A stretch of 64,000 bases of DNA from an uncultured Methanobrevibacter sp. (GTDB taxonomy: Archaea > Methanobacteriota > Methanobacteria > Methanobacteriales > Methanobacteriaceae): the NCBI RefSeq assembly GCF_902764455.1, contig NZ_CACWVY010000014.1, positions 1 through 64,000 on the forward strand, read 5' to 3'. Shown in pieces: positions 1,588 to 61,163 of this stretch. Under the pieces are notes generated by a model. It was given only the letters and a program-made list of their open reading frames with translations, was not told the origin of the DNA and did no database searches. The position numbers and the translations under genes are program-made. Within the stretch, counting starts at the first letter, position 1. Each line of letters begins with the position of its first letter.

Positions 1588-1911
1588 TTAACCTTCCACC
1601 ATAATCAGCTTACCCGTCGCAGGGTCTTTATAGACCTTACCCATCTCGGTATAACCTTGACCTGAGCTGTTTGAAGTATCAGGAGTTTCGTTTAACTGAT
1701 GACCCTGATCGACTTCAGTCATTGTCTTCTGCTGCATCTGCTCCTGAACATTATGTTCCGGATCTATCATTGCCTGCATGTTCCAGCTTATGATAACAAA
1801 AACTAAAAAGCCAACAGCAATAACAAGCATCGCATCTACAAGGTTTGATGTACCTGCCATTGGGTCTTCTTCGACTCTTTTAGACCTGCGTCTACTTTGT
1901 TTTCTTACCAT
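1588..1911 (-). CDS. DUF2149 protein, ExbD-like partner of the ExbB-type channel
   Basis: The 107-residue protein has an N-terminal basic cytoplasmic stretch, one transmembrane helix at about 24-44 and an external Gln/Thr-rich tail. The helix begins NLVDAMLV, which resembles the NLVDVMLV-type start of ExbD/TolR helices whose Asp carries protons. DUF2149 proteins are encoded beside MotA/TolQ/ExbB genes in methanogens. Here the start ATG lies 7 bases from the ExbB stop with GTGAT before it, so translation is probably coupled. The tail is shorter than the periplasmic domain of classical ExbD. The ExbD-like role is inferred from position, topology and the Asp. Confidence 0.75.
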   Translation of the reverse strand: MVRKQSRRRSKRVEEDPMAGTSNLVDAMLVIAVGFLVFVIISWNMQAMIDPEHNVQEQMQQKTMTEVDQGHQLNETPDTSNSSGQGYTEMGKVYKDPATGKLIMVEG

Positions 1912-1918
1912 AAAATCA

Positions 1919-2560
1919 CTAGCTCATTCTATCTAAAACAGCATCAATCAAAGCATCCAAATCTGAGAGATATTTGTCATACCAGCCGGATCTGATTTTA
2001 CCGATAACATAACATAATGCACCGGACCCGATACCAACAATGGTTGTGTTGAACGCTACAGTAAGGGAGCTTGCAAGAGTGTTGATGTCTCCTGCACCTA
2101 ATGCTGCAAGACCCGGACCCATCGGAATTAATGTACCCATTAACCCTAAAGTAGGTCCGATACGGGTAATAATATCGGTCTTTTGTAATGTTGATATAGT
2201 TTTTTCTTCTTCATATTCAAAGAGTTTACGAGCCAAAGCCTCTCTTGAATCTTTTCCCAAAGATTCGGAAGATGCAATTTCATCTAAAACCTTTTTTTGA
2301 GCTTTAGGAATATCAGCAGAAGAAATTACATTTTTTAAAGCTTCTTGAGACTCAGCTGCGTTAATTTCATAAATTAAATCTCTGATTGTACCAACTGGAA
2401 CTTTACGCCTTGATGTATACTCCGCAATGGCTCCACCCAAGGTAATAATTGTTATAATTACAATAACAAGTAAAATCACAAGAACTGGAATTGTCAGACT
2501 CTGTGAAATAACATCAAGTGAACCAGTTAAAAATTCTCCACCAGGAATATTTAAAGCCAT
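1919..2560 (-). CDS. MotA/TolQ/ExbB-family proton channel protein
   Basis: The 213-residue protein has an N-terminal helix (about 22-44), a cytoplasmic charged domain (about 50-125) and two C-terminal helices. It carries the ExbB/TolQ signature TRIGPTLGLMGTLIPM followed by LASSLTVAFNTTIVG. ExbB proteins form a pentameric proton channel around ExbD-like helices and convert proton motive force into mechanical work. The next gene encodes the ExbD-like DUF2149 protein. GGTGA precedes the ATG. In a single-membrane archaeon there is no outer membrane receptor, so the driven partner is unknown. Confidence 0.88.
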   Translation of the reverse strand: MALNIPGGEFLTGSLDVISQSLTIPVLVILLVIVIITIITLGGAIAEYTSRRKVPVGTIRDLIYEINAAESQEALKNVISSADIPKAQKKVLDEIASSESLGKDSREALARKLFEYEEEKTISTLQKTDIITRIGPTLGLMGTLIPMGPGLAALGAGDINTLASSLTVAFNTTIVGIGSGALCYVIGKIRSGWYDKYLSDLDALIDAVLDRMS

Positions 2561-2578
2561 ATTTTTTCACCAAAAAAT

Positions 2579-3289
2579 TTATTCAAGAATGGTTCGTCCC
2601 CTTCTATTTAATACAAAACCTCCTGCGATTAGAATAGCAAAAGCCAAAATAATCATCAGAATGTCCTGAGGAGAACCAAGAGTTACAGGAGTTGTGGTTT
2701 TTGATAATGCTCCTGCAATGTTTGGAATCACAATAGCTGAAAGAAGGAAGTATGCTCCTAACAAAAGCATAAAATTGCCTAAAACAACTGGATAAGGCTT
2801 TGAAATGTAGCCTACAATTGTATTTGAAGCAATATAAGTTACAACCATCACTCCAACTAAAGCTGCTGCTGCATACCAACTTAAATTAAGTGAACTGACA
2901 CCTATTGTCGGTGCAACAATCAAAACACTTGCAATAATTGAACCAAAACAACATGGACAAGGAGCAATAATGGCTAGAGAAGTCGCAGTAGATGTATTTT
3001 TATCATGTATTTTCCATTCTCTTATTGTAAATAAACCTGCTATAATCATAATTGAAGCCATAATAATGTAAAATATAGTATTATAGCTGTAGATAGCCTG
3101 AATCAGCTGATCAGCAAACAGAGAAGCAATAGCTGAAATTACAACAACCCCTCCACCGTATGCTATACAGATTACAGCAAATAATTTCTTAGGCAAATTA
3201 GCCAAACCAGATGCGAGTCCAATTTTTACTCCAAAAACAATGACTGACGCAAAAATACCAACTTGCCACAATACACTCATCATATCCAT
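2579..3289 (-). CDS. DUF2162 multi-pass membrane protein (putative transporter)
   Basis: The 236-residue protein has about seven hydrophobic helices and is typical of the archaeal DUF2162 family, whose function is not known to me. A helix near the middle contains PCPCC (in APCPCCFGS), an intramembrane cysteine cluster reminiscent of the CPC motif of metal-transporting ATPases. It is encoded immediately upstream of the ExbB-like and DUF2149 genes with 18 bases between stop and start, so it probably belongs to the same complex. GGAGA precedes the ATG. A metal transport role is inference. Confidence 0.75.
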   Translation of the reverse strand: MDMMSVLWQVGIFASVIVFGVKIGLASGLANLPKKLFAVICIAYGGGVVVISAIASLFADQLIQAIYSYNTIFYIIMASIMIIAGLFTIREWKIHDKNTSTATSLAIIAPCPCCFGSIIASVLIVAPTIGVSSLNLSWYAAAALVGVMVVTYIASNTIVGYISKPYPVVLGNFMLLLGAYFLLSAIVIPNIAGALSKTTTPVTLGSPQDILMIILAFAILIAGGFVLNRRGRTILE

Positions 3290-3333
3290 ATTAATTTCTC
3301 CACATCAAATTAAATTTAAAATTTTACAATTTA

Positions 3334-3361
3334 ATATTACTCTAATAAAGTATATATATTT
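3334..3361 (-). promoter_or_regulatory. likely promoter of the DUF2162-ExbB-DUF2149 operon
   Basis: On the minus strand an AT-rich TATA-like element (AAAATATATATAC) is followed by TTTATTAGAGTAATATT. The AGTAATA half-site resembles the dyad that surrounds the TATA box of the FmdE-like gene at 7800-7830. The transcript would start about 40-45 bases before the DUF2162 start codon. A shared regulator is only suggested. Confidence 0.35.
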
Positions 3362-3432
3362 TATAAGATGCCGATAAGAAAACTTACTAACATCAATATT
3401 ATATTTAACATCATCGTTAAAAAAGGTAATAC

Positions 3433-3912
3433 TTATTTTTTTAATTTCATATAAACACCGACACCAACTCCAATTATCACACCAATAATCAAACCTGAAA
3501 TCAAAGGAACAATGAAATTTGAATTATTGTCAGAATGAACCTCCACAGTATTAATCTTATTTAAACCATCCTTAATAGTATCATTATTAACATCATCTAA
3601 AACTATTAACCTGTCTGACACTTCATTATGGTTTTTTAAAAAATCTTTTGCAACATCCTGATAAGCAGTAACAAGAATTCTTTTATTGGAATTGTTCAGC
3701 ATGTGCTCCAGCTGATGATTAACCTCATCTCCAGAAGTGAATTTATATACGCTGATATTAATGTTGTTGCTGTCTGCAATTTCCTTAATCAAAACACCAT
3801 TATCCTCACCAGCAATAACCATTTTATCTGCTGTCACGTCAACACCGTGAGCATACAATGCATTGACACTTACCGCCAAAATTATCAGTATGAAAATTAT
3901 CTTTTTTATCAT
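3433..3912 (-). CDS. secreted, C-terminally anchored protein, unknown
   Basis: The 159-residue protein begins with a signal peptide (KKIIFILIILAVSVNALYA), continues with an external domain of about 105 residues predicted as alternating helix and strand, and ends with a glycine-rich transmembrane helix and KLKK. No family is recognised. It starts 1 base after the CbiM-like gene stop (GGGTGTTAAAATG), so it is the last gene of the FmdE/Ser-rich/CbiM-like run. CbiM systems often use an extra small membrane subunit (CbiN or NikL/NikN). This protein might play that part, but its sequence does not resemble CbiN. Confidence 0.6.
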   Translation of the reverse strand: MIKKIIFILIILAVSVNALYAHGVDVTADKMVIAGEDNGVLIKEIADSNNINISVYKFTSGDEVNHQLEHMLNNSNKRILVTAYQDVAKDFLKNHNEVSDRLIVLDDVNNDTIKDGLNKINTVEVHSDNNSNFIVPLISGLIIGVIIGVGVGVYMKLKK

Positions 3913-3913
3913 T

Positions 3914-4543
3914 TTAACACCCGTTTTTACTTAATTCAACCATTTCCGGTTTTATTTTCTTTATTGCATTAATTATTATTACATTTGCAAATCCTTCAAT
4001 CAAACTTATAAACATGTAAAATGGCACAAGAGTCGCTAAAAGACTATCCAAATTCATGGCGCCTGATAAAATTAAAATAAATACCTGGCCAAATGTTGCA
4101 GACATTATACCAATGACTGTGGATAAAAATATAGCCAAACTTTCATTTATATGCCTAAAAATATTATAAAATGCAAATGTCATGAAAGCAATTATAACAC
4201 CAATTACCAGAAAATTAGCACCAAAACAAACAATTCCTCCCATATTCAATACAAAAAACTGGATTAACAAACCAAAGAATGCAACCATATATGCTCTAAA
4301 TGGCCCCAGCATTATTGCAACCAAAGGAATTAAAAAGAAATGAATCGGCACTCCCAATGGGGAGGGAACAGATAATGAAGTCACCACAATGAAAAAAACT
4401 GAAAAAAGTGCAATTAAAATTATACCTCTTTCCTTATCTTCATTTTTAGAAAATTTATAAAGAAAAACAGCAACGAACATTAAGCTAATACACCAGTAGA
4501 CAATTGATTGTTCTAAAGGAAGGATTCCATCTGGCAAATGCAT
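3914..4543 (-). CDS. CbiM/NikM-like ECF transporter substrate component
   Basis: The 209-residue, about six-helix membrane protein begins MHLPDGILP, matching the N-terminal motif of CbiM/NikM proteins in which the start of the chain and His2 coordinate Co2+ or Ni2+. The start codon overlaps the stop of the Ser-rich gene (TAATG) and is preceded by AAGGTGATC, showing translational coupling. No CbiQ or CbiO lies beside it. It may share the energising module of the full cbiMNQO operon at 58.6-61.1 kb or be driven otherwise. Substrate is uncertain. Confidence 0.8.
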   Translation of the reverse strand: MHLPDGILPLEQSIVYWCISLMFVAVFLYKFSKNEDKERGIILIALFSVFFIVVTSLSVPSPLGVPIHFFLIPLVAIMLGPFRAYMVAFFGLLIQFFVLNMGGIVCFGANFLVIGVIIAFMTFAFYNIFRHINESLAIFLSTVIGIMSATFGQVFILILSGAMNLDSLLATLVPFYMFISLIEGFANVIIINAIKKIKPEMVELSKNGC

Positions 4544-5109
4544 TAGATCACCTTGAATTTATGCAATAACACCATCAAACCGAAGCCAATGAAAAATGCA
4601 ATAATTAAATAAATAATATTATTAAAACTTAATAAATTGTTGTTCTCTTTTGGAGAATCAATATCCCCAGTATTATTTACAGTAGTATTGTTTTTTTTAA
4701 TTATATTTTTTGAAGTATCTCCGTTACTAACAGCATGACCGTCACTGCCTGATTGTGAGTTTGCACCATCAGAACCACTTGAAGACTGAGAGCTTCCAGA
4801 AGAAGAACCACTTTGAGCCCCACTACTTTGAGAATACGAAGAACCGCCGCTACTTGAGGAAGATGATACAGCTTCAGAAGAACTTGAGGAAGATGATTCA
4901 ACTGGTGAATAGCTGGAAGACTCAAATGAACTAGCCGGACTGGAACTTTCAGATGGACTGACCACTTCTTCAGGAGTATATTCTCCGTGACCAGGATGGG
5001 CCGCAACCGCTGAAAATGTAATACCAACAACAGTCAATATCAAAAAACAACATAAAAAAGCTTTTTTATTAATTCTAAAACCCCCAAAAAAAATAAAAAA
5101 ATATTTCAC
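4543..5109 (-). CDS. Ser-rich secreted protein with HPGHG motif and C-terminal anchor
   Basis: A signal peptide (KKAFLCCFLILTVVG...AVAA) is followed directly by HPGHGEYTPEE, a histidine-containing, possibly metal-binding mature N-terminus. A Ser/Gly/Gln-rich low-complexity stalk of about 90 residues and a C-terminal transmembrane helix come next. The listed GTG start lies inside a terminator-like hairpin. A start at ATT 5073, 7 bases after GGGGG, would give a cleaner signal peptide (xNKKAF), but ATT starts are rare. The gene sits between the FmdE-like gene and the CbiM-like gene. A role in presenting metal to CbiM is inference. Confidence 0.65.
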   Translation of the reverse strand: MKYFFIFFGGFRINKKAFLCCFLILTVVGITFSAVAAHPGHGEYTPEEVVSPSESSSPASSFESSSYSPVESSSSSSSEAVSSSSSSGGSSYSQSSGAQSGSSSGSSQSSSGSDGANSQSGSDGHAVSNGDTSKNIIKKNNTTVNNTGDIDSPKENNNLLSFNNIIYLIIAFFIGFGLMVLLHKFKVI

Positions 5110-5123
5110 AAATGTGAAATATT
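5086..5123 (-). terminator. hairpin plus U-tract after the FmdE-like gene
   Basis: AATATTTCACA and TGTGAAATATT form a perfect 11-bp stem around two bases at 5100-5123, overlapping the stop codon of the FmdE-like gene. On the minus strand a run of about 14 bases, nearly all T, follows. This should terminate or attenuate transcription between the large anchored protein and the three smaller downstream genes, making them less expressed. Confidence 0.7.
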
Positions 5124-7740
5124 AATTTTTACGTTTTAAATATCCGTAACCTAAAATAGCACCTAAAATCAGTACTGCTGCAATTGCAACCAATATTGCA
5201 TTATTGTCTGCAGATTTGGTTGCCGGTTTTTTACTGACTTCATATGATTTAGCATCTTTTGCAGAATTAGATGAACTTGGTGAATTCTGACTGCTTGCAA
5301 TATCATTAGTAACCTCTTCAGCTGCACTGGCAATTGCATCAACAGATTGACCAACAAATGAGCTTACCCCATTAGATGGACTTGAAATACCTGACCTGGA
5401 ACTGCCTGATTGAGGGCTACTTGATTGAGAACTGCTTGATTGAGACGGTTTTGAAGAACCACCATTATCTACTTTAACATTATTGTTTTTATTTGAGCTG
5501 TCTTCAGTAGTAGTTTTGCTTGGATTTGAATTAACAGGAAGTTTGTCTTCCAAACCTTTAATATAGGATATTGAATTTCCCTGTTCGGTTGTAGTGGCTC
5601 CGGAAACAATTAATTTAAGCATTTCTTCATTGATTTCTTTTCTAGCAGTAGCTTTAAGAACCGGTCCCTGTACAAGATTTGGAGAGGAATAATCTCCTTT
5701 ATATAATTTGATATATTCTTCATAGGAATCAGACCCTTTAGCAAATTTAGGCCATTCACAATAAACAATTATTGCTTCACCGGTTTTAGTTGCACTATTC
5801 CATTTAATTGCAATACCTACTTCAGTACCATTTGTGTAAGTTAAATTATATCTTAAGTTATAATAATTTTCCATTCCCGGAGAAACACCAAGAAGTCTTG
5901 AAATTATATCATCCTTACAGTTATCGTCTGTTGTTATGTATATGAATGATTCGTTTTCATTTGTTATTGGAAGTTCACTGTATACAAAGTCAGTGATTAA
6001 ATAACCTGGAGAACTTCCACCGCAAACGTGATTGTGGAACAGCCATGCGACCAATACGTCGTATGGAGGATCATATTTCAATACACTTTGAATAACATAA
6101 TTTGCATCTCCGGTAGTATTGCCTGTTTCTATAAGTTTTCCTGTAGTTTCATCATATCTTAAACTGTAGGATAATGTATCTTTATTATTTGTACTGTTTA
6201 CCCAGAAGAAATCAAATACCAAATCCTTCCATAAGGCAGTATGAACCGGCAATAAAGTTTTTTTACTTAATCTTGAACCTAATACATCACTGATTCCGTC
6301 TAAAACCATTTCAGTACTTGTTCCATTGATTCTTACATAACTTGCTGAAGTTAATACAAATAAATTAGGATAATCTTTTGGTACAGATACCCCTTGTTCT
6401 TTCAAGTAATCCAATGCCATTTTACTAGCATCAGAACCTATTTGTTTAAGCTGTTCAGGAGTTAGTGCGGTATATTGTTTTACTGTCTGTTCTTCACGAG
6501 TTGCTTTTTTAAGGCTTAAATTAAGAATGTAATCCATATCCAAACCATGAGCACTTTTGAGAACATTTCCTTTACCCTGTTCTTCACCCATCAGATAATA
6601 AAGGTCATCCTGAGTGAGACCGTCAAATTCATATAACACATCTACAAGAGATGTTGGGTCGTCATGTAATGTTTTAATTAGCCAATTTTGATATTTCAAA
6701 TCATTGGTTGCACTTGCATCCGGATTTAATTTTGTAAGTTTTTTAAATGTTTCTTTAATTTTAGCTTCGTTATAGCTCATAATGATTATCAAACCAGTAT
6801 TTGATGTGCTGTTCCATCTGATAAATCCTGTCATGGATTTGTCAACCATTGTATCCACACCAATGTACGCCCTTTTACCTGGAGTAATATCCATTGTCCA
6901 AGTAAATGCATCATCATCTGAGTCACCAGGCACACCAATTACATAATATGCTGTGTTTTCAAGAGGTAAACCTGATTCTCCACGGGGAGGATAATATTTT
7001 AATAAGGTTTGTATCATTGCCTGACCGCTTATAAGTCCGGTACAGACATGTCCATGGTAAGTTGCTTGGGTTAAAACATCCTTAGGAATTCCGTTTGCCC
7101 ATGAATTTGCAATACTGATATAAGAGTATGCATCTTCATTTCCCAATAATTTCTGTAATTTTTTCCATTCCTTATCGGATATTTCAGGTCCTGCATTACC
7201 ATAATATAACGGAGTAGTAGCACCATTTTTATAAAATGCCATAGTTAATGCATCACCATGTTTAACTATGAAAGCTATATTTGTCGGATCTGATCTTATT
7301 GCAGATAATGTCAATAGATTTCCCTTACCATAAGATACATATCCATTAGAAGCATCAATTATTCCATTTAAAACATTTTCAGTAGTTACATTATCAATTC
7401 TTGTTAAACCTGCAGTTGTAATTACTAAAATATCATCTGCGGATTCGAAGTTTAATTTGCTATCTGCAGCGGAGGTTACATTATAACCAAGCTGATAGTT
7501 GCTATCATCTTTTAAATTAGAATCCACTGCACCGGATTGTAATGAATTTGCCTGTGAAGAAACAGAAACTGAATCCTCCAAATCAGATACAGAGCTAATT
7601 TCTTCTGAGGTTACTTCAATTAAATCATCATCCGGATTAATTGATAATGAGCCGTCAGCATCATCACTTGCCGAAGCGACTCCAATTAAACTGATTGTCA
7701 AAATCAATAAAATAACCATGAGAACACTTTGTTTTTTCAT
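5122..7740 (-). CDS. large membrane-anchored protein with two FmdE-like halves
   Basis: The protein of about 872 residues has an N-terminal signal peptide (KKQSVLMVILLILTIS...VASA) and two related halves of about 330 residues. Each has an FmdE-like histidine/cysteine motif, HGHVCTG near residue 230 and HNHVCGG near 568. A Ser/Gln/Asn-rich stalk (about 745-835) and a C-terminal helix ending YLKRKN follow. FmdE-family domains bind metal through such His/Cys motifs, but their role outside the cell is not established. AGGAGA precedes the chosen ATG; the longer frame starts inside the leader. It heads the run leading to the Ser-rich and CbiM-like genes. Presentation of a metal or metal cofactor at the cell surface is inferred. 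Confidence 0.78.
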   Translation of the reverse strand: MKKQSVLMVILLILTISLIGVASASDDADGSLSINPDDDLIEVTSEEISSVSDLEDSVSVSSQANSLQSGAVDSNLKDDSNYQLGYNVTSAADSKLNFESADDILVITTAGLTRIDNVTTENVLNGIIDASNGYVSYGKGNLLTLSAIRSDPTNIAFIVKHGDALTMAFYKNGATTPLYYGNAGPEISDKEWKKLQKLLGNEDAYSYISIANSWANGIPKDVLTQATYHGHVCTGLISGQAMIQTLLKYYPPRGESGLPLENTAYYVIGVPGDSDDDAFTWTMDITPGKRAYIGVDTMVDKSMTGFIRWNSTSNTGLIIIMSYNEAKIKETFKKLTKLNPDASATNDLKYQNWLIKTLHDDPTSLVDVLYEFDGLTQDDLYYLMGEEQGKGNVLKSAHGLDMDYILNLSLKKATREEQTVKQYTALTPEQLKQIGSDASKMALDYLKEQGVSVPKDYPNLFVLTSASYVRINGTSTEMVLDGISDVLGSRLSKKTLLPVHTALWKDLVFDFFWVNSTNNKDTLSYSLRYDETTGKLIETGNTTGDANYVIQSVLKYDPPYDVLVAWLFHNHVCGGSSPGYLITDFVYSELPITNENESFIYITTDDNCKDDIISRLLGVSPGMENYYNLRYNLTYTNGTEVGIAIKWNSATKTGEAIIVYCEWPKFAKGSDSYEEYIKLYKGDYSSPNLVQGPVLKATARKEINEEMLKLIVSGATTTEQGNSISYIKGLEDKLPVNSNPSKTTTEDSSNKNNNVKVDNGGSSKPSQSSSSQSSSPQSGSSRSGISSPSNGVSSFVGQSVDAIASAAEEVTNDIASSQNSPSSSNSAKDAKSYEVSKKPATKSADNNAILVAIAAVLILGAILGYGYLKRKN

Positions 7741-7799
7741 AATTATTCTCCTAAATTTTAGTATAACCATAAACTCTGATTATACCAACAAAAGTTTAT

Positions 7800-7830
7800 A
7801 GTAATAAATATATAAACATTATTTATTACT
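7800..7830 (-). promoter_or_regulatory. dyad enclosing the TATA box of the FmdE-like gene
   Basis: AGTAATAAATA and TATTTATTACT are perfect 11-base inverted arms separated by 9 bases. On the minus strand the centre reads GTTTATATATT, a good archaeal TATA box. The transcript would begin about 35-40 bases before the FmdE-like ATG at 7740. An operator in this position would block TBP binding, consistent with repression by an unknown regulator. Confidence 0.55.
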
Positions 7831-8264
7831 GCATATATTAATAATTATATAATCAGTAATACTAATTTAATGATGTTCAAAAAATTAGTAAATACAATTA
7901 AATCTGTTTAGCAAAAATAAAAAAGTATTATTTTTAAAAAATAGATTTAAATTCTACTTTCAGAAATTCAGCTAATGAGAATACCCAAAAATTAAAAAAG
8001 ACGAAAGTATTACTAAATGAAAATTTAATAACTTTATAACAAAGTTAATGACCTTTAAATTTTAAAAAAAATAAAACCCTCTCATTAAAAAACATTTTAA
8101 TTATTATTTATTATCAAATGTTAAATATAACATTGTTAATACTATTATTTACGAACAAAAGCAAATTTAAGTAGATTAAAAAAAATCAAAATAAGAACAC
8201 CAGAAAATTTTATAGTAATCAAATAAAATATATTATAATATTAAATTAAAAAATGAGGCAAAAC
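7831..8264. other. AT-rich divergent promoter region
   Basis: About 430 bases separate the promoter of the FmdE-like gene from the plus-strand ligase gene. No coding sequence is credible. Near the right end AAAATATATTATAATATTAAATT could supply the TATA element for the ligase transcript. Several GTATTA/TAATAC words occur (near 7850, 7927 and 8006), similar to those before ribC, without a clear pattern. Confidence 0.45.
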
Positions 8265-49289: not shown

Positions 49290-49979
49290 TCAATCAAGAA
49301 GTTTTACTTCCCCGGAGTGAAGACTTGTACCCATCAATACTTTTTTTATCCCAATAGACTCCAGTTCATTTAATGAATTTTTATTTAAACCTCCTGCTAT
49401 AATCAGCTTGTCTTTTAAATCAGAAAATTCATTTAAGAGTTTTTCATTATATCCTTTTTCAGTACCTACACCTGTAATGTCCAAAAGGATTATTTCATTG
49501 GGATCAAGCTCCTTTAAGATTTCCTTAAGCTCTGATAAATTTAAATCAAGGTTTTTAGAAAGCAACTCATTATCTTTTACATCAACACTTACTACAATCC
49601 TTTCTTTTGGAAATTTTTCAAATATCCTTTTCATCTCATCTATACTTTCAAGAGTTTCACTAGGAACAATGACCTTGTAGGCATAGTCCAGGAAAAATTC
49701 AAAGGCTTCACAGTTTTTTACGCCACCGTCAAAAATAACCGGTAAAATTGTGTTGACCATTTTTATATCATTAATGTTATGACCATGAGCTTCGATTAAA
49801 TCCAAATCTGCAATATACATCTCATCAGCACCATTCAACTTTAATCCCTGTGCAATATCAACAGGATTGGATGATGGAGCAAAAACAGTTCTTAATGGTG
49901 TGTATGTATCCCTCATTCCGGATTTGCCGCTTACAGCCTGGCCTTGCATTAAATCTATTACTGGAATTTTTTTAATCAT
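49290..49979 (-). CDS. HisA/HisF-related TIM-barrel protein (uncharacterised)
   Basis: The 229-residue protein starts IPVIDLMQGQAVSGKSG, as in HisA. It has YIADLDLIEAHGHN, VSVDVKDNE and a C-terminal phosphate-binding AGGLN and LMGTSLHSG. It belongs to the archaeal HisA-like group (COG1411 type) rather than to histidine synthesis itself; reaction unknown, with cofactor synthesis as a guess. It stands alone between two large intergenic regions. Confidence 0.72.
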   Translation of the reverse strand: MIKKIPVIDLMQGQAVSGKSGMRDTYTPLRTVFAPSSNPVDIAQGLKLNGADEMYIADLDLIEAHGHNINDIKMVNTILPVIFDGGVKNCEAFEFFLDYAYKVIVPSETLESIDEMKRIFEKFPKERIVVSVDVKDNELLSKNLDLNLSELKEILKELDPNEIILLDITGVGTEKGYNEKLLNEFSDLKDKLIIAGGLNKNSLNELESIGIKKVLMGTSLHSGEVKLLD

Positions 49980-50335
49980 ATTAAATAATTGGACAAAAGA
50001 AGTATTAAAAACTTAAGGAGGTGAGAAGAGCTGATGTGTTTGTCAGCTCTCTCGAGAAATACGAAAAATAATGATCAATTTAAGATTTATAACAGACAGT
50101 TATGAACCTCTACTAATTAGTTTTAATTACATAGTATATAAATGTTACTCTATTTTAGAAAAATTAAAGTATACTTGAATATATAATTTTTAAAAATAAT
50201 TATTAAAATATATATAATTATTAAATTATATATTAAAAAATAAACATTTATTCATGAAAAATGAAAAATTATAAAACGCCGAATTTTTAAGGCTTAAAAA
50301 TTAATAAATTTTAATAAAATTAGATTGATAAAGTT

Positions 50336-50447
50336 AAATTGAAAAAAATAAGTTTGAAGTAACTAGAAGAGGGAAATTGAAAGATAGTATTACGTGTTAC
50401 ATTTATATTGCTAAGCTATTGACATTACTTCAAACTCATTTCAATTT
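50336..50447. ncRNA. candidate structured RNA or large hairpin
   Basis: AAATTGAAA (50336-50344) pairs with TTTCAATTT (50439-50447), and AGTTTGAAGTAA (50351-50362) with TTACTTCAAACT (50425-50436). Together they give 21 bp of perfect stem with an asymmetric bulge around a 62-base loop. There is no ORF and no G+C-rich terminator look. Whether it is transcribed is unknown. Confidence 0.35.
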
Positions 50448-50520
50448 TGATGCAAAAAAATATGATAATATATCTTCACTCATCCTTGCACAATATAACT
50501 ATTGAAATTAATAGTATAAA

Positions 50521-50540
50521 TACTTTTTTATAAAAAAGTA
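50521..50540 (-). terminator. 20-bp AT palindrome after DUF3194 operon
   Basis: TACTTTTTTATAAAAAAGTA is perfectly self-complementary and lies about 60 bases downstream of the DUF3194 stop. T-runs on both strands fit archaeal U-tract termination. Confidence 0.4.
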
Positions 50541-50599
50541 ATACTTATTTTAATAAAAATATTTAAATAAGTAATACTGAAAAATTTAAAAAAAAATAA

Positions 50600-50884
50600 T
50601 TATTCCCTGAAATTCTCATCAATGTAGGAATCAAACTTCAAATAAGCTTCATCAATAGCTTTCATGATTTGGTCTTGGTTTATTTCAGAAAGCTCATCAA
50701 AAAGAATGCCAACATCAACATCAACGTCTAACTGATCATTTTCATAATTGAGGGTAATATCCAAATCCAAGTCTTCAACTTCTTTGGTGGAAATATTTTT
50801 AGAAACCTCTTTTTCCAATATTTCGCCAAAATCATCAGAAATAGTTGATAAATCTTCTGGAGATAGTTTTTTGAGTTTAGACAT
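50600..50884 (-). CDS. DUF3194 family protein
   Basis: The 94-residue acidic protein (KKLSPEDLSTISDDFGEILE...DVDVDVGILFDEL) matches the small archaeal DUF3194 family, usually encoded beside prefoldin beta. It has no known catalytic motif; a chaperone- or RNA-associated role is only suggested by context. It is the last gene of the operon, 33 bases after the prefoldin stop. Confidence 0.8.
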   Translation of the reverse strand: MSKLKKLSPEDLSTISDDFGEILEKEVSKNISTKEVEDLDLDITLNYENDQLDVDVDVGILFDELSEINQDQIMKAIDEAYLKFDSYIDENFRE

Positions 50885-58576: not shown

Positions 58577-59410
58577 TTAGTTTTTGTTTAACAAATCTAA
58601 AAACTTATCCTTAGCTTCGTCAATTGTTAACGGATAATCCCCTTGCATGTCAAAACCTTCCTTTTCAAGATCTTGGAAGAGTTCAGTGACAATTGGGACT
58701 TTTAAATTAGCTTGATCCAATATTTCAGGTTTTGCAAAAATTTCTTTAGGAGTTCCTTCTGCAATCAATAAACCATCAACTAAAACAAAAACACGTTCAG
58801 CATAATTAGGGACCAAATCTACTTCGTGTGTTGAAATTAAGATTGTAATTCCTTCATCATTAAGTTCTCTTAACAATTTTGACAAATCAACAACTCCCTG
58901 AGGGTCAAGGCCTGCTGTAGGTTCATCCAAAACCATCACTTCAGGTTTCATTGCAAGAATACCTGCAATGGCAACACGTTTCTTTTGACCTCCACTTAAA
59001 TGATGAGGTGCTTTTTTCTCATATCCTGACATACCTACACGGGCTAGGGCATATTCAACTCTGTCCTGAACCTCTTCCATAGACAATCCCAAATTAAGAG
59101 GACCGAATGCGACATCCTCCTCAACTGTAGGAGCAAATATCTGGTCATCAGGATTTTGAAATACAATCCCAACTTTTTGTCTGAATTTAAGCAATGACTT
59201 TTTATCATATTTTAATTCTTCACCATCAATGAAGACCTGACCTTCATCAGGTTCAAAAATTCCATTCAAATGAAGAAACAAAGTTGATTTACCAGCACCA
59301 TTTTTACCTAAAAGAGCAACCATTTCGCCTCTTTCGACCTTTAAGCTAACTCCTTTAAGAGCCTGATACTCAGAATTATAAGCATATTTAATATTTTTTA
59401 CTTCAATCAT
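58577..59410 (-). CDS. cbiO: cobalt/nickel ECF transporter ATPase CbiO
   Basis: The 277-residue ABC ATPase has Walker A LGKNGAGKSTLF near 36, signature LSGGQKKRVAIAG near 140 and Walker B VMVLDEPTAGLDP. It energises the CbiM/CbiN/CbiQ transporter, and may serve the CbiM-like protein at 4 kb. GGAGCATTAAC precedes the ATG at 59410; the longer frame overlaps cbiQ and is rejected. It is the last gene of the operon. Confidence 0.93.
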   Translation of the reverse strand: MIEVKNIKYAYNSEYQALKGVSLKVERGEMVALLGKNGAGKSTLFLHLNGIFEPDEGQVFIDGEELKYDKKSLLKFRQKVGIVFQNPDDQIFAPTVEEDVAFGPLNLGLSMEEVQDRVEYALARVGMSGYEKKAPHHLSGGQKKRVAIAGILAMKPEVMVLDEPTAGLDPQGVVDLSKLLRELNDEGITILISTHEVDLVPNYAERVFVLVDGLLIAEGTPKEIFAKPEILDQANLKVPIVTELFQDLEKEGFDMQGDYPLTIDEAKDKFLDLLNKN

Positions 59411-59411
59411 G

Positions 59412-60107
59412 TTAATGCTCCTTTTTTCTTGGTTCATAAACCGGAAGATCACCTGTGTAGCCTCTAGAATCTAAAGAATGTTGTAATGTTTCACTTTTAT
59501 CAAGTGCCCTTAAAAATATTGTACTTGCAAGAGCTCCTAAAGACTTGAATGAAGTCCAGTATGAATGATAACCCAATCTAGAGTTTTGAGCTTTCTGCAT
59601 AGTGTCGATTTCATTTAAAAATATGAATATAGTATTATACATCAAAAGTGCAATTTCAATTAAAATTTTTGGAACTTTAAAAGTTCTAAGGCAATTTAAA
59701 ATCTTTGCAATAGGAGTAGTCAATGCTAAAAATCCTAAACAAGGCAAACATCCCATAACTCTCATAAATGTATAAACAGCATAATGAAATGAATCATTAG
59801 TAACCACTATGCCCAGTATTCCAGTTTCATATATTACATCCCCCTTTCCAAAGAAGAACAGTAAAAATATACATGTTATAACAAGAAATGCCATTGGAAT
59901 TGACAGGAATTTCAAATAAGATCTATAGTTAATTTTTGCAATTGCTAAAATGACAATTGACATTACAACAAATATGAATACATCAAAATACAGATTATCG
60001 AGTGCTAATGTAACAATTAACAATATAATTGTTAAAAACAATTTAAAATAAGGATTTGTTTCTGTTAATTCATTATTATGTGCAATATAATCCATATCAA
60101 ATTTCAT
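59412..60107 (-). CDS. cbiQ: cobalt/nickel ECF transporter transmembrane subunit CbiQ
   Basis: The 231-residue membrane protein has about five helices and the Ala-Arg-Gly-like coupling helices (LRALDKSETLQHSLDSRGY) that contact CbiO. It forms the scaffold of the ECF transporter. The stop is directly next to the cbiO start. Confidence 0.92.
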   Translation of the reverse strand: MKFDMDYIAHNNELTETNPYFKLFLTIILLIVTLALDNLYFDVFIFVVMSIVILAIAKINYRSYLKFLSIPMAFLVITCIFLLFFFGKGDVIYETGILGIVVTNDSFHYAVYTFMRVMGCLPCLGFLALTTPIAKILNCLRTFKVPKILIEIALLMYNTIFIFLNEIDTMQKAQNSRLGYHSYWTSFKSLGALASTIFLRALDKSETLQHSLDSRGYTGDLPVYEPRKKEH

Positions 60108-60149
60108 AAAATCACTTAAAAAAAAAAAGAAAATTAAAGAAGAAATAAA

Positions 60150-60437
60150 TTATTCTTCTTTTCCTTTACCTCTCCAGTAACCAAATGCATAACCAATAAT
60201 GATTGCACCTATAGCTGCTTGAAGAGCAAATAATAAACTTTCTATTTCACCACTAGGTGGTTCCCATATAGATGAAAACCAAGGTTCAAAACCTGTTTCT
60301 TCGATAGCTTCACCTGCTGCATCATCTGCACCGCCAAAGTATCCGTCATCTTCTCCATGACCATTAAACATTATTAATGGTGCAATGAATAATATGATGC
60401 ACACAACAGCTAAAATAATTAATGTTGATGTTTTCAT
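60150..60437 (-). CDS. cbiN: cobalt transport protein CbiN
   Basis: The 95-residue protein has a helix at each end and an external loop GHGEDDGYFGGADDAAGEAI, as in CbiN. CbiN helps metal load into CbiM. It is directly downstream of cbiM (10 bases) and before cbiQ. Confidence 0.92.
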   Translation of the reverse strand: MKTSTLIILAVVCIILFIAPLIMFNGHGEDDGYFGGADDAAGEAIEETGFEPWFSSIWEPPSGEIESLLFALQAAIGAIIIGYAFGYWRGKGKEE

Positions 60438-60447
60438 TTATATCACC

Positions 60448-61113
60448 TTATGCTTCATTAGGAGCTAAAGCACCTAATTTATCTAATAATTTTGGTTTAT
60501 AAGCTTTTAATCTGTCCCATATAATTACGGTTAAGAGACCTTCACCAATAGCTAATGGCACTTGAGTTACTGCGAAAATAACTAAGAATTTGGTTAATGC
60601 TTCACCAAAAGTAGGAGCAGGGAAAGCGAAAGCTAATTGGAATGAAGTAGCTACATAAGTTAACAAGTCACCTAAAAATGCTGCAAAGAAGATTGCAATA
60701 GTTGATGAAACATTAGCTTTAGTTAAACCTTTATATACTAACCATGCGACTAATGGTCCGACAATTCCCATAGAGAATATGTTTGCACCTAAAGTAGTTA
60801 ATCCACCGTGAGCAAGTAAAATTGCTTGGAATAAAAGTACAATAGTTGCAAGTACTGCAGTTACAGCTGGACCAAATAATGCTGCGCCTAACCCGTTACC
60901 ACAAGGGTGAGAACAACTTCCAGTAACAGAAGGCAATTTCAAAGATGATAATACAAACATGAATGCACCACTTACAGCAAGCAATGCTTTTGATTCAGGG
61001 GTTTCATCCACGATTTTTTTAATTTGATATATACCAAATGCAACAACGATGAATGATATGACAAACCATATTATACACCAGTTTAATGGTAAATATCCTT
61101 CCATAATATGCAT
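60448..61113 (-). CDS. cbiM: cobalt/nickel ECF transporter substrate component CbiM
   Basis: The 221-residue membrane protein starts [12 protein letters not shown], the N-terminal metal-binding motif of CbiM, and has [15 protein letters not shown], another typical loop. It binds Co2+ (or Ni2+) outside. GGAGG lies 9 bases before the ATG. Order cbiMNQO is complete. Cobalt feeds corrinoids of the methyltransferase Mtr. Confidence 0.93.
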
Positions 61114-61135
61114 AAATAATTTCCTCCAAATAACT

Positions 61136-61163
61136 ATCAATACTAATTGATATATAACTCAAT
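61136..61163 (-). promoter_or_regulatory. ATTGA/TCAAT repeats around the cbiM TATA box
   Basis: ATCAAT-ACTA-ATTGAT (61136-61151) and a further TCAAT at 61159-61163 surround TATATAA on the minus strand, about 35-45 bases before the cbiM gene. The half-sites ATTGA could bind a metal-responsive repressor. Confidence 0.45.

Follow-up and report, generated by a model that had tools for sequence, protein, structure and literature searches.

What would a motor of the ExbB family do in an archaeon that has no outer membrane? This question is raised by seven adjacent genes on the minus strand of contig NZ_CACWVY010000014.1, from an uncultured Methanobrevibacter sp. whose genome comprises 2.75 Mb in 85 contigs. 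The first 64,000 nucleotides of the contig were analyzed and are called the window below. At 1588-7770, the genes encode FmdE2, p188, CbiM and p159 (together termed the cassette), followed by DUF2162, ExbB and DUF2149 (the motor trio). They are spaced by −1 to 18 bp, except for 143 bp between p159 and DUF2162; such tight spacing with a single gap would thus make the locus one or two transcription units. Its named near relatives are gut Methanobrevibacter. All seven genes listed in the initial annotation are present, and Pfam supports the families DUF2149, MotA_ExbB, DUF2162, CbiM and FmdE, the last in two stretches. The span given there, 1588-7740, starts correctly, but its end falls on an internal ATG, the reading frame opening at 7770. 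We give an even chance to the view that the operon forms one cell-surface uptake system for scarce nickel, or less likely cobalt, driven by an ion gradient. As judged from genome comparisons, the FmdE2 cassette appears to be a second, recurrent partner of the motor trio, which is new here.

We first consider whether the two halves belong together. The initial annotation held that the FmdE-like/CbiM-like half and the ExbB/DUF2149/DUF2162 half would be separate systems if they were never neighbors elsewhere; they adjoin in several genera. The most specific marker of the cassette was p159, found in 55 of 150 genomes and 15 of 19 genera, with CbiM adjacent in all 42 p159 loci read. The trio lay within 14 kb of p159 in 20 of these 42 loci (binomial 4e-23 against a chance rate of ~2%, which is a rough estimate). 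Beyond those 20, G049 carried the trio at ~15 kb, and G033 (L222) carried ExbB-DUF2149 inside the cassette, without DUF2162. The exact seven-gene order was observed in three genera, namely the window genus (G000, G110, G142), g3 (G011, G030, G047, G068; ExbB of G047 was read from the translation) and g4 (G031, with two FmdE2). Variant orders were also found, such as CbiM-p159 divergent from FmdE2-p188-trio (G005, G014, G027, G131, G140), the FmdE2 cassette with CobN and the trio (G035, G072, G076), and FmdE2-CobN-trio in g18. When the concatenated trio proteins were placed in a tree, those linked to FmdE2 fell into at least three separate clades. The trio and the cassette would accordingly seem to belong together in genomic terms, yet their parts are apparently separable. 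A contig labelled 'uncultured Bacillales bacterium' (L260) carried the full methanobacterial seven-gene operon, probably through a binning error.

Next, the members of the motor trio were examined. In ExbB, T143 and T172 were invariant, and its profile matched MotA structures. DUF2149 has one transmembrane helix, in which Asp26 lies within NLVDAMLV, and an extracellular C-terminus with a conserved GkVYkDpatGKlimve segment. The ExbD-like Asp that the initial annotation had pointed out is this residue, invariant among archaeal and bacterial relatives. Profile comparison with TolR and ExbD aligned the transmembrane segments alone and weakly, at chance level (E 1.1 and 2.2, respectively). The Asp and the topology agree with an ExbD-type small subunit, and the DUF2149 gene adjoins the MotA/ExbB gene. 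The PCPCC noted in DUF2162 is present. A search of the Protein Data Bank (PDB) with its AlphaFold model (pLDDT 72) gave no fold match below E 0.2.

DUF2162 was found in 128 of 150 Methanobacteriales genomes, most often behind CobN where a partner was recognized. Another trio of the window genome lies on contig C17, immediately after the gene for a secreted, anchored CobN-like protein of 1692 aa, as in hmu-type operons of Bacteroidota and CobN-ExbB-DUF2149 operons of Proteobacteria; no CobN is encoded in the window operon, where FmdE2 occupies that place. Thus, the motor trio reported at this operon is there, but it is not unique to it, the usual partner being a secreted CobN-like protein, also in bacteria (PMC12583661, PMC10434189). 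The PCPxC motif of DUF2162 varied with the partner. It was present in 28/28 CobN-linked trios, 29/30 trios without a recognized partner and 4/4 of the window clade, and in 0/14 genomes with dedicated FmdE2/CbiM trios in other clades (17 loci including re-fetched contigs). The simplest reading is that DUF2162 would pass metal in the CobN branch, for which it is a candidate metal permease, and would be relieved of that role where CbiM is present. In Methanothermobacter-type genomes, an FmdE2-CobN-trio operon sits between a His_biosynth gene and DUF3194-prefoldin. The window keeps both flanks around an empty site (49979-50600) that lacks the operon and in which three GTAWTAC elements remain (50387, 50538, 50571).

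The surface proteins were then compared. FmdE2 begins with a signal sequence and ends with a C-terminal helix, and the two FmdE-like halves claimed for it are marked by HGHVC at 239 and HNHVC at 579. HGHxC in domain 1 and HxHxC in domain 2 are found in all full-length FmdE2 proteins, which contain hardly any further cysteines. A model of residues 85-720 (pLDDT 81) gave the FmdE-like structure 2glz as its top fold match (probability 1.00, E 5e-3); this match came from the fold search alone, the sequence search against the PDB giving none. As claimed, p159 and p188 are two secreted anchored proteins, each with a signal sequence and a C-terminal helix. AHG.DVT in p159 and HPGH in p188 are conserved right after the predicted cleavage, and HPGH may form a surface His-metal site. 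A profile search of p159 against the PDB gave no credible match, and no likeness to known families was detectable. The CbiM-like ECF component was also borne out by its Pfam match, and M1, H2 and H68 align with the metal ligands of NikM2 (4m58). No CbiQ/CbiO energizing module is encoded within 1588-7770. At L244 (7787-8554), a lone CbiQ gene points away from an FmdE2-p188-CbiM-p159 cassette, and a GTAWTAC array separates the two.

The C-termini of full-length FmdE2 and CobN-like proteins share one layout, that is, a Ser-rich linker, a K[SA]YE[VI]xK-type motif, 10-20 further residues and a helix. In the window FmdE2, the juxtamembrane tail reads KSYEVSK, with E844 invariant. YE[VI] preceded the C-terminal helix in 47/49 full FmdE2 and 26/38 CobN proteins (73/87 together) compared to 3/143 other C-terminally anchored proteins, and most of the remaining FmdE2 and CobN proteins had E-[VIL] variants. 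A hidden Markov model (HMM) of the tail alone, run against 60 genomes, matched almost exclusively open reading frames (ORFs) of FmdE2 or CobN size. When 20 matches of unidentified nature were fetched, 19 proved to be CobN and one a further type (L294, 2736-6257), a 1173-aa anchored protein with a KSYEVSK tail that is neither CobN nor FmdE2 and is possibly a third partner type. Bacterial CobN tails were looser versions (VEGFEMKE, VQGQVMTP). The tail common to CobN-like and FmdE2 proteins is put forward as a candidate motor-docking site. A domain common to CobN and FmdE2 was also considered and rejected, the likeness being limited to signal, linker and tail. Short FmdE2 relatives (490-640 aa), in which the tail and both HxHxC motifs are missing, were likewise rejected as working partners and are treated as degenerate or repurposed. 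In many gut Methanobrevibacter, the gene just upstream of the trio encodes such a derivative (L161-L170, L198). A 533-aa anchored protein without a Pfam match but with a KSYEISK tail is encoded just downstream of a trio (L170, 909-2510), and contig C4 of the window genome encodes a second full-length FmdE2 (L012, 8623-11400; 925 aa) with both HxHxC and the YEV tail, without cassette or trio.

The regulation of these genes was also analyzed. A heptamer, GTAWTAC (extended AGTATTACT), occurred at 3.59/kb upstream of FmdE2, CobN, DUF2162 and CbiM genes compared to 0.40/kb elsewhere, as counted in 500 bp upstream against the remaining non-coding sequence at these loci (binomial 1.5e-71, uncorrected for kinship). 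This enrichment was about ninefold, and six control heptamers of like make-up showed none. The arrays were spotted by reading sequences, and the motif was chosen after part of the data had been seen. At least one GTAWTAC was present in 65 of 76 FmdE2 upstream regions. Only two triple clusters were found in the window genome, before the CobN operon of C17 and before a heavy-metal P-type ATPase gene, named from its sequence, on C51 (L350, 3-1373). An MNQO operon on C33 has four sites, and the MNQO operon of the window (58577-61140) has none directly upstream. A simple dyad search across the promoters yielded no common long palindrome. The element resembles GTGTTAC, the NikR half-site of delta-proteobacteria (PMC545781), and the window genome contains one NikR gene. 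In nickel-limited M. marburgensis, MTBMA_c10530 ('Transporter'), CobN1 and NikR1 increase in the proteome (PMC12350162), and MTBMA_c10550-c10570 is a CobN-like chelatase spread over three genes (PMC3087415). In genome G019, the trio-side CobN is split into exactly three ORFs, followed in descending order by DUF2162, ExbB and DUF2149, and the promoter element also stands in front of FmdE2. Gene counting would make c10530 the ExbB of the CobN-linked trio, or DUF2162 should the annotation contain an intervening small ORF. We infer the metal from this regulation; among the candidates Co, Ni, Mo and W, it points most likely to nickel rather than to Mo or W (PMC12350162). The features of the locus are collected below.

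Features of the seven-gene locus and its promoter region (window coordinates)
Feature	Coordinates	Strand	Characteristics
DUF2149 protein	1588..1911	minus	Pfam DUF2149 2e-22; putative ExbD-like stator rod
ExbB/TolQ/MotA-family channel subunit	1919..2560	minus	Pfam MotA_ExbB 2e-9; GLMGTLIPmG and AF.TT invariant
DUF2162 polytopic membrane protein	2579..3289	minus	Pfam DUF2162 6e-65; PCPCC loop
Gap between cassette and motor trio	3290..3432	minus	143 bp; one GTAWTAC at 3426, no element array
p159, anchored	3433..3912	minus	159 aa; helix at each end, extracellular domain in the middle
CbiM/NikM-type S component	3914..4543	minus	Pfam CbiM 2e-40; M1, H2, H68 intact
p188	4543..5109	minus	Signal peptide, HPGHGEY, Ser-rich linker, C-terminal helix
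FmdE2, anchored surface protein	5122..7770	minus	882 aa; Pfam FmdE 1e-20, two stretches
Promoter region, shared with divergent AMP-binding gene	7771..8252	minus	GTAWTAC at 7856 and 8007, plus near-matches

A working order can be proposed for these parts. FmdE2 and p188, outside the membrane, would take metal from the wall space via HxHxC and HPGH. ExbB and DUF2149, whose families are given by the Pfam matches, would act as an ion-gradient-driven motor in the cytoplasmic membrane. This motor would grip the KSYEVSK tail of FmdE2, which is common to the CobN-like partners, and the surface protein would then release its metal. The metal would pass to CbiM and its helper p159, consistent gene partners, for import without an ATP-driven Q/O module. 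Systems of the CobN branch would use DUF2162 with PCPCC as membrane partner, and those with CbiM could do without it. The initial annotation suggested that the motor acts on anchored FmdE-like proteins; the association of an ExbB-type motor with such proteins is genomically well supported, and the mechanical coupling between them is putative. That an ion-gradient motor acts directly on anchored surface proteins through an interchangeable docking tail, pulling metal from extracellular sites, is a tentative proposal to which we give somewhat less than an even chance. The same reserve applies to the partners it would have, namely FmdE2, the CobN-like chelatases and one or more other types of tailed protein.

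Several observations weigh against a single nickel uptake system. The cassette lacked an adjacent trio in 22/42 loci, and the trio lacked any recognized neighbor in 30/80 rows of the trio tree set. Close relatives hold the trio without the cassette at the orthologous locus (L091, L094, L181-L193) and the cassette alone elsewhere. DUF2162 of the window clade retains PCPCC, so a CobN protein from another locus (C17 or C38) may still be the one that the window trio serves. Kinship among the genomes inflates every p-value. The 18- and 32-bp spacings of GTAWTAC do not agree with the N13/14 published for NikR, NikR-like half-sites would not by themselves prove NikR binding, and the c10530 assignment rests on gene counting in G019. 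The separate occurrences, together with the 143-bp gap and a common regulatory element that would favor co-location, are what would be expected of two neighboring systems in one regulon, a trio serving CobN and an independent FmdE2/p188/CbiM/p159 metal importer. We regard this explanation as unlikely, though it deserves serious attention; the recurrence of one and the same seven-gene order across distinct clades of the trio tree, the ExbB-DUF2149 pair embedded within a cassette, the tail that FmdE2 has in common with CobN and the variation of DUF2162 with its partner all argue against it.

About as doubtful is a metal-tetrapyrrole substrate (heme, cobamide or F430-like) that would be captured and then stripped or taken up, in place of metal in free or weakly bound form. 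In bacteria, the heme (hmu) operons that hold counterparts of the trio also encode the heme de-chelatase HmuS (PMC12583661). CobN belongs to a tetrapyrrole chelatase family, and FmdE2 stands beside CobN in several genera. However, FmdE2-only operons lack CobN and contain CbiM, a metal-ion S component with intact ligands, and the CobN/ExbB/DUF2149 operon of P. aeruginosa is annotated with zinc and iron uptake. In addition, FmdE is not known to bind tetrapyrroles. Molybdenum or tungsten as the substrate is brought to mind by the FmdE domains, named after a molybdenum formylmethanofuran dehydrogenase operon, and by a ModE-like HTH-TOBE regulator near the cassette in several Methanobrevibacter (L247). 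This is highly improbable, as CbiM is a divalent-cation S component, the common element is similar to NikR sites and stands in front of an MNQO operon as well, and the ModE-like neighbor is not conserved. At L247 (5601-6308) and in relatives, this regulator and a flippase adjoin several trio-less cassettes. Since ExbB/TolQ/MotA motors work in several processes, the ExbB-DUF2149 motor could have another job, for instance in the turnover of surface proteins or the remodelling of the wall, and the metal genes would then be passengers. Flippase genes adjoining some cassettes would fit this explanation, but archaeal and bacterial partners alike are metal-related throughout (CobN, FmdE2, CbiM) and the regulation is of a metal type, which leaves it little credit.

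Nickel uptake at the cell surface, the reading that we prefer, can be set against known systems. The closest are hmuYRSTUV of Bacteroidota and the CobN-ExbB-DUF2149 operons (P. aeruginosa PA1922-1925, T. lovleyi pGLOV01). These share with the window operon the ExbB-type channel, DUF2149 and, in most cases, a membrane protein resembling DUF2162, next to a large metal protein that is anchored outside the cytoplasm; control by metal supply is also common to them. They differ in partner and setting. CobN/HmuS is the partner in the bacterial systems, most of which include a TonB receptor, and the cells are bounded by an outer membrane; in the window operon, FmdE2, p188, CbiM and p159 replace CobN/HmuS, and no outer membrane exists. 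With TonB-ExbB-ExbD, TolQR and MotAB stators, the operon shares the channel fold family, the invariant Thr and the transmembrane Asp of the small subunit; unlike TonB-ExbB-ExbD and TolQR, it has no TonB, TolA or outer-membrane receptor. No TonB-like transducer or outer-membrane receptor was found in the window operon or in the archaeal operons annotated. T. lovleyi holds a separate ExbB-ExbD-TonB set next to its trio and CobN, an indication that TonB is energized by something other than the trio. CbiMNQO/NikMNQO transporters resemble the cassette in a CbiM with an intact N-terminal metal site and a small two-helix helper with an extracellular domain, but the cassette has no adjacent Q or O, the complete MNQO sets of the genome lying at 58577-61140 and on C33. 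Compared to the FmdE family (2glz, FmdE of Fmd operons), FmdE2 has the Pfam domain twice, H-x-H-x-C and the matching fold, but it is duplicated, secreted and anchored, with extra domains and a YEV tail, and lies outside an fmd operon context. Our literature search found no paper on DUF2162 and none on FmdE together with ExbB. The initial annotation knew of no such complete system; this does not hold for the motor trio, whose family and CobN version are known, and it holds for the FmdE2/CbiM version and the tail, undescribed as far as our searches go.

The current picture of ExbB-family motors is that of machines reaching the wall or an outer membrane. That such motors recur beside anchored metal proteins in archaea lacking this membrane hints at a wider job, in which ion-gradient energy frees metal from surface sites. 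If the motor indeed works on surface proteins through a docking tail, ExbB-DUF2149 of bacterial hmu-type operons would be a chelatase motor and not a TonB energizer. The role of archaeal CobN-like proteins has been called unclear (PMC12583661), and the present proposal offers a concrete, testable function for many of them as well as for DUF2149 and DUF2162. As methanogens need much nickel, the proposal bears on how gut methanogens compete for this metal.

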